Of a stretch of DNA of 64,000 bases, positions 47,359 through 50,168 are shown one piece after another. Origin of the DNA: Armatimonas rosea (GTDB lineage Bacteria; Armatimonadota; Armatimonadia; Armatimonadales; Armatimonadaceae). The DNA is taken from positions 124,001 through 188,000 of the forward strand of contig NZ_JACHGW010000001.1 in the NCBI RefSeq assembly GCF_014202505.1, written 5' to 3'. The position numbers were made by a program, and so were the translations under genes. The notes under the pieces were generated by a model. It saw nothing but the letters and a program-made list of their open reading frames with translations, searched no databases and was not told the DNA's origin. Within the stretch, counting starts at the first letter, position 1; each line of letters begins with the position of its first letter.

Positions 47359-47508
47359 TCGCGCGAATTTAACACTTCTGACGCTGGCTAAACACAGCAA
47401 ACGACGGTTTCGACGTCCTTGCGGCTTGCCTCCACGTGGGCTAGAATCCCCTCCGTCTCCTCGCCAGAATCTGCCTGGTGGATCTGGGACGGGGAGCACA
47501 AAGACGAC

Positions 47509-49236
47509 GTGAGCGAGCAACTACAATTTGAGGACGAAGAGATTCCTATCGTCCTGCGGCGCGCCTGGGACCGCGCACTTCGGATGCTCGCAACACGAGT
47601 GAATAAGCCGACGTTTGAGGCACATATCCGCACCCTGAAGCCCTTGGCGCTCCACGAGCCCATGGTCGAAGGACGGATTCTCTGCCAGGTTGTTTTGGGA
47701 GTCCCCTCGGCCTTCACCCGTGAGTGGGTAGAGAAGCGGCACACTCCCCTGATCCAAGGACTGCTCGAAGAGATCCTGGACCGGGAGGTCCGACTTCAGT
47801 TTGCCTTGCTGCAACCGCAAAGCCGCACCTTTGCCGAGCAGTCAGGCCAACCAAGGGCGATCACACCAAGCCTGTTCGAGGCACCGACCGACGGTCATTT
47901 CCTCGCTCCGACCGAAGCGCTCACCCGTTTCGAACAGGAATCCGCACCCACTGGGGCTCTGGTAGCCGCACTGCCAGAGCCTCAAGGGGAAATCCTCACC
48001 CTTGAGCCCGAGATCGTGGTCGTCCCCGCGCCACGCGTCTCTCTTGCCCCCGCGCGCACGAAACCCGCACAGACCGCTCTCCCGCGCACGGGTGCCAACA
48101 CGCACTCACAGCCCGGCAACCCGGACTCCCCGCAGCTCAACCCCCGCTACACCTTCGATTCTTTTGTCACGGGGCGCAGCAACCGACTGGCGGAGGGTGG
48201 TGCCCACGCGGTCGCACAGGCCCCCGGCGAGGTCTACAACCCCCTCTTTCTCTACGGCCCTCCTGGAATCGGCAAGACCCACCTGATGCACGCCATCGGC
48301 CACGAGATCGCGGCGCAGCGGGGGTCGGAGCATGTCTGCTATGTCTCCGGCGAGGCCTTCACCACCGCCTTTGTCAAAGCCAGCCGCGAGAACAAGATGG
48401 AGGAGTTCCGCCGCCGCTGGCGCAATGTCGATGTCTTCCTTCTCGATGATATTCAGTTCATCGCGGGCAAGGACAAGACCAACGAAGAGTTTTTCCACAC
48501 CTTCAACGCCCTCTACCAGACCGGCAAGCAGATCGTGATCTCGTCGGACCGGAGCCCCCGGGAGCTGAAGATGATGGACGAGCGCCTGCGCTCGCGCTTT
48601 GAGTCCGGGCTGATCGCCGATATCGCGCCGCCCGACCTTGAGACGCGCCTGGCGATCCTACAGAAAAAAGCCGAGCTGGAGCGCATGCGCATCCCCGACG
48701 ATGTGTTGATGTACATGGCGCGCCTGGTGCAGAGCAATATCCGAACCCTAGAGGGTGCCCTGGTCAAGCTGGTCGCCTACGCGTCGCTGGTCAACTCCCC
48801 CGTGACGGAAGAGCTCGCCTCGGACATCCTGGAGCGCTACTTTGCCTCAGCGGGCCTAACCCTTCCCGGTGACTCAGAAGACGCCCCCGTGGCCCTCCTG
48901 GAGGCCGCACAAGCCGCCACAGGCGGTCCACGCGGCCGGATCACCGCCGAGGTCATCCAGAAGGTCGTGGCGCGCCGCTACGGCCTCGATCCCGAGGCGC
49001 TCAAGGGCAAGAAGCGCGACAAAGAGACCGCCCGTGCCCGCCAGGTCGCGATGCTGCTCATGCGCGAGCTCACCGAGACCAGCCTCCCCGGGATCGGGCA
49101 GTTCTTCGGCGGCCGCGACCACACGACCGTCATGCACGCCTGTAGCAGCCTGCGCGAGCAGCTCACCGGCGACGACACCCTGCGCGAGCTGGTCGGCGAG
49201 CTAACCACAGAAATCCGTCACGAAGCCACTCCTTAG
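47509..49236 (+). CDS. dnaA: Chromosomal replication initiator DnaA
   Basis: The 575-residue protein starts with GTG; a GGGGAG lies 12 nt upstream. Domain I is at about 15-90 (TFEAHIRTLKPLAL). Domain II is an unusually long, low-complexity linker to about 200. The AAA+ domain III has Walker A YGPPGIGKTHL near 250-258, Walker B LLDDIQFIAGK near 313 and sensor RLRSRFESGL. The DNA-binding domain IV has GGRDHTTVMHACS near 535, the DnaA signature. It binds the DnaA boxes at 49416 and beyond to unwind the origin. dnaN and recF, its usual partners, do not follow. Confidence 0.98.
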   Translation: MSEQLQFEDEEIPIVLRRAWDRALRMLATRVNKPTFEAHIRTLKPLALHEPMVEGRILCQVVLGVPSAFTREWVEKRHTPLIQGLLEEILDREVRLQFALLQPQSRTFAEQSGQPRAITPSLFEAPTDGHFLAPTEALTRFEQESAPTGALVAALPEPQGEILTLEPEIVVVPAPRVSLAPARTKPAQTALPRTGANTHSQPGNPDSPQLNPRYTFDSFVTGRSNRLAEGGAHAVAQAPGEVYNPLFLYGPPGIGKTHLMHAIGHEIAAQRGSEHVCYVSGEAFTTAFVKASRENKMEEFRRRWRNVDVFLLDDIQFIAGKDKTNEEFFHTFNALYQTGKQIVISSDRSPRELKMMDERLRSRFESGLIADIAPPDLETRLAILQKKAELERMRIPDDVLMYMARLVQSNIRTLEGALVKLVAYASLVNSPVTEELASDILERYFASAGLTLPGDSEDAPVALLEAAQAATGGPRGRITAEVIQKVVARRYGLDPEALKGKKRDKETARARQVAMLLMRELTETSLPGIGQFFGGRDHTTVMHACSSLREQLTGDDTLRELVGELTTEIRHEATP

Positions 49237-49415: not shown

Positions 49416-49830
49416 TTATCCACAGGGCCTGTGGATAACCTGTGGATAACCTGTGGATAACCTGTGGATAACTTGTGGATAACTTGTGGATAACTCGGGC
49501 GGCCTGTGGATAACTTTCGTTTGAAAAGCGTTTGCCTGTGGATAACCTGTGGATAACTCAGAGCCTGCCTGTGGATAACTGCCGAGTTATCCACAGGCTA
49601 GAGCGAGTTATCCACAGGCCTGTGGATAACTCTGTTTGCCCCTAAATCTAGTTTTTCTCTCGATAGAGAGTGTCTTTTGTTTGTGCTCTGTTTGCCTTTT
49701 TTAGAGCATTTTTTTACTTTGTCAGTCAAAGCGTTTGCCTGTTTTTGCCGAGTTATCCACAGGCTGGGCTCTCCCCTACTACTACTACTAAGAGTAATAA
49801 AAAAAGAAAGAGTAGAAAACTAAGAAAGAA
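49416..49830. other. Chromosomal origin of replication, oriC
   Basis: This stretch fills most of the gene-free gap 49237-49940. I count fifteen exact TTATCCACA/TGTGGATAA boxes, starting at 49416, 49430, 49441, 49452, 49463, 49474, 49485, 49505, 49537, 49548, 49570, 49587, 49608, 49621 and 49753. Six consecutive reverse-strand boxes (49430 to 49485) are exactly 11 bp apart, about one helical turn. T-rich sequence occupies 49631-49750. The last forward box is followed by a GC-rich linker, the CTA triplets at 49776-49790 and an A-rich tract to 49830, a likely unwinding site. Its position next to dnaA supports the assignment. Confidence 0.97.
49776..49790 (-). other. DnaA-trio element of the basal unwinding system
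   Basis: Five consecutive CTA triplets (TAG on the minus strand) lie 14 bp after the forward DnaA box at 49753-49761. The linker GGCTGGGCTCTCCC is GC-rich. This box, GC-rich gap and trio order matches the bacterial unwinding system described for Bacillus subtilis, where DnaA loads onto single strands at GAT-type (3' to 5') triplets. An A-rich tract follows directly. Confidence 0.85.
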
Positions 49831-49834
49831 GCGC

Positions 49835-49858
49835 GAGGCGAGATTCGAGGCTCGCCTC
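49835..49858. other. 8-bp perfect hairpin between oriC and the purS promoter
   Basis: GAGGCGAG and CTCGCCTC flank an 8-nt loop. It is placed just before the -35 of the purS promoter and could insulate the origin from transcription. Confidence 0.45.
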
Positions 49859-49940: not shown

Positions 49941-50168
49941 TTGCCCAAAGTCACCGTTACCGTCACGCTCAAGCCTGCTCTTCTGGATGCCCAAGGCCGC
50001 ACCATCCAGGAAGCCCTTCACAGCCTGGGCTATACCGATGTCGCCAATGTCCGTGTCGGCAAGGTGATCGAGCTGGAGACGGCCAATCCGGCGGATGTCA
50101 CGGCGATGTGCGAGAAGCTACTGGCCAATCCTGTGATGGAGTCCTACAAGATCGAGGTGGACGGGTGA
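49941..50168 (+). CDS. purS: Phosphoribosylformylglycinamidine synthase, PurS subunit
   Basis: The 75-residue protein begins with TTG behind AAGGAA. It reads PKVTVTVTLKPALLDAQGRT, the standard PurS opening, with DVANVRVGKVIEL and a CEKLLANPVMESYKIEV ending. PurS bridges PurL and PurQ in the fourth step of purine biosynthesis. The stop overlaps purQ by 4 bp (GTGA). purL is not adjacent in the window. Confidence 0.95.
   Translation: MPKVTVTVTLKPALLDAQGRTIQEALHSLGYTDVANVRVGKVIELETANPADVTAMCEKLLANPVMESYKIEVDG

Follow-up and report, generated by a model that had tools for sequence, protein, structure and literature searches.

Between dnaA and purS, in a window that comprises the whole 64-kb stretch of DNA analysed here, 15 exact copies of the DnaA box TTATCCACA lie within 346 bp (49416–49761), and the first of them begins 180 bp to the right of the dnaA stop (Table 1). 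An earlier note on this DNA had reported 15 such boxes, six of them on the reverse strand at 11-bp steps and a further pair in the same register at 49537 and 49548, and all of this was recovered exactly as described. The dnaA product, 605 aa from a mechanically assigned TTG start, displayed recognisable domains I, III and IV and scored 481.8 bits against the NCBIfam equivalog TIGR00362, for which the DnaA cut-off is 343.9.

Table 1. Features of the dnaA–purS region (positions in the window) and three-box clusters elsewhere in the genome (contig:position).
Feature	Position	Strand	Basis or remark
dnaA, initiator protein	47419..49236	+	Pfam DnaA_N, Bac_DnaA, Bac_DnaA_C; TIGR00362
Exact DnaA box, facing the array	49416..49424	+	exact match
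Six exact DnaA boxes at 11-bp steps (49430, 49441, 49452, 49463, 49474, 49485)	49430..49493	-	four in the sister species
Exact DnaA box, 20 bp (2 turns) past the array	49505..49513	-	exact match
Two exact DnaA boxes 11 bp apart (49537, 49548), 32 bp (3 turns) past the previous box	49537..49556	-	exact match
Exact DnaA box, 22 bp (2 turns) further	49570..49578	-	exact match
Two exact DnaA boxes 21 bp apart (49587, 49608)	49587..49616	+	exact match
Exact DnaA box facing 49608	49621..49629	-	exact match
T-rich region between array and BUS, 123 bp	49630..49752		distance kept in three genomes
Inverted repeat ACTTTG-N5-CAAAGC shortly before the BUS	49716..49732		sequence comparison, four genomes
DnaA box of the BUS, exact	49753..49761	+	exact match
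GC-rich BUS spacer, 14 bp	49762..49775	+	sequence; limit 0–16 bp in PMC8287927
Five CTA repeats (DnaA-trios, 3'-GAT-5' on the other strand)	49776..49790	+	recognisable in four family genomes
A-rich stretch past the trios, probable DNA unwinding element (DUE)	49791..49838		sequence; function inferred
purS, right neighbour, bounding the origin but not part of it	49941..50168	+	Pfam PurS, 5.5e-27
Seven three-box clusters of perfect DnaA boxes (L003–L009)	C1:607529, C1:899817, C1:1252977, C2:52541, C2:156938, C2:449566, C8:114025		present genome (G000)

With up to one mismatch allowed, 26 matches to the box were counted in the window, as against 4.3 ± 1.9 in shuffled sequences, none of which reached 26, and the whole genome contains 55 exact copies compared with nine of a reversed control pattern. 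Single-mismatch boxes were lacking from the dnaA–purS interval, and the two boxes there that differ at two positions both lie to the left of the array. The view that low-affinity boxes are missing accordingly holds at this stringency between the two genes, although weaker sites are possible.

Identity of the origin

GC skew was sampled along contig C1 (1.69 Mb) of the metagenome-derived Armatimonadota draft assembly (19 contigs) in 40 stretches of 20 kb. Cumulative skew was lowest at the two sampled windows flanking the site, which lies at 173.4–173.8 kb of C1, and of the 35 sampled windows further right, across 1.5 Mb, 33 had positive skew; contig C2, sampled in the same way, displayed no comparable minimum. 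Both marks by which a bacterial chromosomal oriC is recognised, a DnaA-box cluster adjoining dnaA and a GC-skew minimum, are hence present, and among the sampled windows of C1 the minimum was found at this site and not elsewhere. Together with an unwinding module and conservation in relatives (see below), they make the identification as chromosomal oriC, already proposed in the earlier note, well supported. A plasmid or phage iteron origin was rejected, as the site adjoins dnaA, coincides with the skew minimum and lies far inside the 1.69-Mb contig.

Spacing and conservation of the boxes

The same-strand gaps at oriC and in the three-box clusters measure 11, 20–22 or 32 bp, i.e. one, two or three helical turns. 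It had been suggested that all boxes of the register run face the same side of the helix, which is correct only approximately, because six boxes at 11-bp steps accumulate a shift of 2.5 bp (about 86 degrees) on a helix of 10.5 bp per turn; the phasing in turn reaches further than was claimed, as with 10.7 bp per turn the ten reverse-strand boxes from 49430 to 49570 deviate from a common phase by no more than about 1.5 bp. The eight corresponding boxes in the sister species of the same genus (G001; JAPLCP, a genome from a lake metagenome and the nearest named relative) stay within 0.9 bp of one phase. When all 11-bp gaps were removed, the eight left-over spacings, pooled from oriC and the three-box clusters, were still whole-turn (p = 2.5e-4 under a simple uniform-spacing null).

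The boxes themselves are strictly conserved: in the sister species 117 of 117 aligned box bases of oriC are identical, compared with 307 of 481 other bases. Six and four boxes form the register run in these two species and two each in G003 and G007 of the same family, and since the number varies to this extent, members of the family can do without a long run. The distance from the last array box to the box at 49753 was found to be 132, 130 and 127 bp in the present genome, G001 and G007, respectively.

Sequence elements between the array and purS

The forward box at 49753 is followed by a GC-rich spacer, the repeat CTACTACTACTACTA and an A-rich stretch (Table 1). Judged by the published definition of the Basal Unwinding System (BUS), i.e. 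a box with at most two mismatches, a spacer of 0–16 bp and at least three DnaA-trios (PMC8287927), a BUS of the DnaA-trio type is recognisable here from sequence, with an exact box, a 14-bp spacer and five CTA/GAT units, of which five also occur in G001 and G007. It can be recognised in all four family genomes compared (G000, G001, G003 and G007), with a weak box in G003. The main series of the array is oriented opposite to the BUS box. Neither this orientation nor the BUS and its trios, nor the three-box clusters elsewhere in the genome, had been noticed earlier, and the previous interpretation is supported only in part.

Two further elements occur in the region. The inverted repeat ACTTTG-N5-CAAAG is exact and identically placed in G000, G001 and G007 and imperfect in G003; its longer form ACTTTG-N5-CAAAGC was found once in 800 kb of sampled background, which includes the contig of the present copy, and it is possibly the site of another factor. 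The heptamer GTTTGCC is present four times in the 0.7-kb origin (49530, 49634, 49690 and 49733) and 110 times in the 800-kb background; three relatives each have at least one copy in their origin, and the heptamer may possibly represent a candidate site of a further origin-binding factor.

Three-box clusters outside the origin

All 30 exact genomic copies of the extended site GTTATCCACAGG belong either to oriC (13 copies) or to one of seven three-box clusters (triplets), which together hold the other 17; the rest of the genome contains none. The refuting case considered earlier, a dense array away from the origin in relatives, thus has a faint counterpart within the genome itself. At three loci two direct boxes 11 bp apart are followed by an inverted box 12 bp on, while the other geometries are 21+11 (two loci), 21+21 and 11+17. 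Five of the seven triplets are located at orthologous sites in G001, where 135 of 135 box bases are identical and the flanks only 41, 53, 53 and 66% at four loci and 89% at the one locus inside a gene; the sixth site retains one box in G001 and the seventh none. A search for one triplet geometry in the rest of the family was negative. In the in-gene case (L004:3018–3068, C1:899817–899867) the triplet lies in frame within the gene of a CBM9-like protein, and translation of its boxes gives PVDN three times in either species, with different residues in the nearby spacers.

The triplets were encountered between divergent, convergent and co-directional genes and in coding sequence, and their neighbours comprise pth, the CBM9 protein, an N-acetyltransferase, a GDSL lipase, an MR/MLE enzyme, a TPR protein, an M16 peptidase, an MFS protein and a flavodoxin. 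A DnaA regulon was not supported by these unrelated neighbours and mixed contexts. Neither were the triplets supported as a mobile repeat, for their geometries differ and non-orthologous matches stop within about ten bases of the boxes.

Register arrays in other genomes

That a register array is unique to the present lineage was rejected, as such runs were detected in other Armatimonadota, in a sample of genomes around a Christensenella-like genome and in viral contigs. Runs of at least three boxes were present in six of 291 Armatimonadota genomes, belonging to three separate families (relaxed TTWTNCACA boxes), and in one of 299 genomes of the Christensenella-area sample (exact boxes). In that sample a genome found through the array pattern (L157) has two boxes, ACCC and then CTA repeats, the same order as in the BUS described above. 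In the genomes G028 and G186 the sequence next to the boxes reads as dnaA-like and recF-like coding sequence, which shows an origin context; in G186 (contig C5, L104) the origin beside the recF-like gene carries a three-box run at 12-bp steps and a four-box run with steps of 11, 11 and 12 bp. Within Armatimonadota, such arrays seem to have originated on more than one occasion. Among viral contigs (IMG/VR), 32 (L158–L189) with widely varying base composition contain perfect boxes exactly 11 bp apart in runs of four to six, which may be DnaA-dependent phage origins or DnaA sinks.

A dense array off the origin in relatives occurred only in weak form, as a four-box run in one f28 genome on a contig that may not carry oriC. 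In another Armatimonadota genome, a four-box array (L103, G174:C39) is situated close to a contig end that is rich in GC; no dnaA turned up in the 2.1 kb inspected, and the locus may belong to a mobile element or be a stray contig.

Discussion

Anatomy, conservation and GC skew make it very probable that this oriC consists of two working parts, a phased box scaffold and a BUS as unwinding end. The fourteen perfect boxes at 49416–49629, ten of them in one phased reverse-strand series, would form a scaffold of high occupancy on which DnaA assembles cooperatively, and the filament on one face of the helix that was envisaged earlier fits this layout. About 125 bp further on, the single forward box, the GC-rich spacer and the five DnaA-trios would act as the unwinding end. 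Contact between the two parts would be made by looping of the T-rich 123-bp segment, probably not by one straight filament, because the scaffold series points in the direction opposite to the BUS box. DnaA would then pass from the duplex to the single strand at the trios and presumably melt the A-rich DNA for helicase loading. A probable role of the distant three-box clusters is to restrain or modulate DnaA.

Other explanations have to be weighed against this one. The 11-bp register might largely be a by-product of tandem duplication by slippage of an 11-bp unit, the number of units being nearly neutral and the 2-bp gaps tolerated since they happen to suit DnaA. The array units are near identical to one another, six copies here stand against four in the sister species with the flanking boxes unchanged, and the phage runs of four to six boxes are of a like kind. 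However, gaps of 20, 21, 22 and 32 bp with unrelated spacers hold the same phase, and 11 and 21 bp are also used by the triplets elsewhere in the genome. Because the non-11-bp gaps remain phased, the spacing rule does not derive from duplication alone, and we regard slippage as the main cause of the register as a reading with something to be said for it, though on balance somewhat doubtful; the length of the six-box run as such may be accounted for by tandem duplication.

It is rather unlikely that the 14-box region is mainly a brake, i.e. a local, datA-like DnaA sink beside a minimal BUS origin. Perfect boxes would be expected to fill early, the array lies 125 bp from the BUS in the opposite direction, and four to seven boxes suffice in relatives; yet the array is placed inside the origin and conserved along with the BUS, and box clusters beside the DUE direct assembly in origins that have been studied (PMC4285127). 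That the boxes serve to control transcription of purS-purQ, upstream of which they do lie, appears very improbable, as such a function would not need a GC-skew minimum, a BUS or so many boxes. The scaffold with its separate unwinding end is preferred.

The conserved triplets are of more interest than the array. Since their neighbouring genes share no theme, titration or reactivation of DnaA is a better guess than a regulon, and by analogy with the DnaA-box clusters of B. subtilis they are probably DnaA-titration or control sites. They would make the titration idea countable, with 21 boxes outside the origin rather than hundreds. We propose tentatively, at a likelihood a little short of even, that DnaA control in the genus relies on a small, near-complete set of perfect boxes (15 at oriC and 21 in seven triplets) that acts as a discrete system of initiator titration or reactivation; oriC and triplets would share an 11, 21 and 32-bp rule, and each triplet would therefore bind a defined DnaA oligomer. 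To our knowledge, no co-factor of the datA/DARS type (IHF or other) has been described for this phylum.

Compared with known systems, the present origin is ordinary in its components and mostly of a known kind. Its box number, believed earlier to exceed that of most origins, is partly in line with this, origins on record having 5 to 19 boxes (PMC4285127). Origins of Thermus and Streptomyces (cited in PMC4451416 and PMC4285127) likewise possess many close consensus boxes that are thought to be filled cooperatively, a likeness drawn without a base-by-base comparison of layout. With the B. subtilis-type BUS (PMC8287927, PMC6669920) it has in common the order of box, GC-rich spacer, DnaA-trios and A/T-rich DNA, downstream of dnaA; in contrast, its main cluster is large, 125 bp off and mostly of opposite orientation, one exact BUS box is found and not two, and dnaN is absent beside dnaA, unlike in the B. 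subtilis type. A handful of multi-box clusters off oriC, here seven triplets with five at orthologous sites, is likewise common to B. subtilis, where removing six DnaA-box clusters (DBCs) together leads to early initiation (PMC5295017). The present triplets differ from the DBCs in being rigid, with perfect boxes in few fixed geometries, and in that the exact extended site is confined to them and oriC.

The 11-bp register is not new, and the array takes a known arrangement to an extreme. For Thermotoga maritima, a pair of boxes in the same direction binds best when 2 bp lie between them (PMC10316083), the boxes there being 12-mers (PMC4285127). Shifts of origin spacing by part of a turn are harmful, whereas a full turn is tolerated (PMC4285127). 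The low-affinity arrays of E. coli oriC consist of same-direction 9-mers exactly 2 bp apart, which are said to place DnaA on one face (PMC4451416). The six boxes at 49430–49493 share this direction and 2-bp distance and thus the 11-bp register, but they are not weak, non-consensus sites: all six are perfect consensus, with no visible gradient of affinity. The less usual features of the present origin are that every box is perfect and that the same-strand gaps are whole turns, and it hence offers a clean natural test of how far initiation timing depends on differences in affinity, as in E. coli, and how far on geometry alone.
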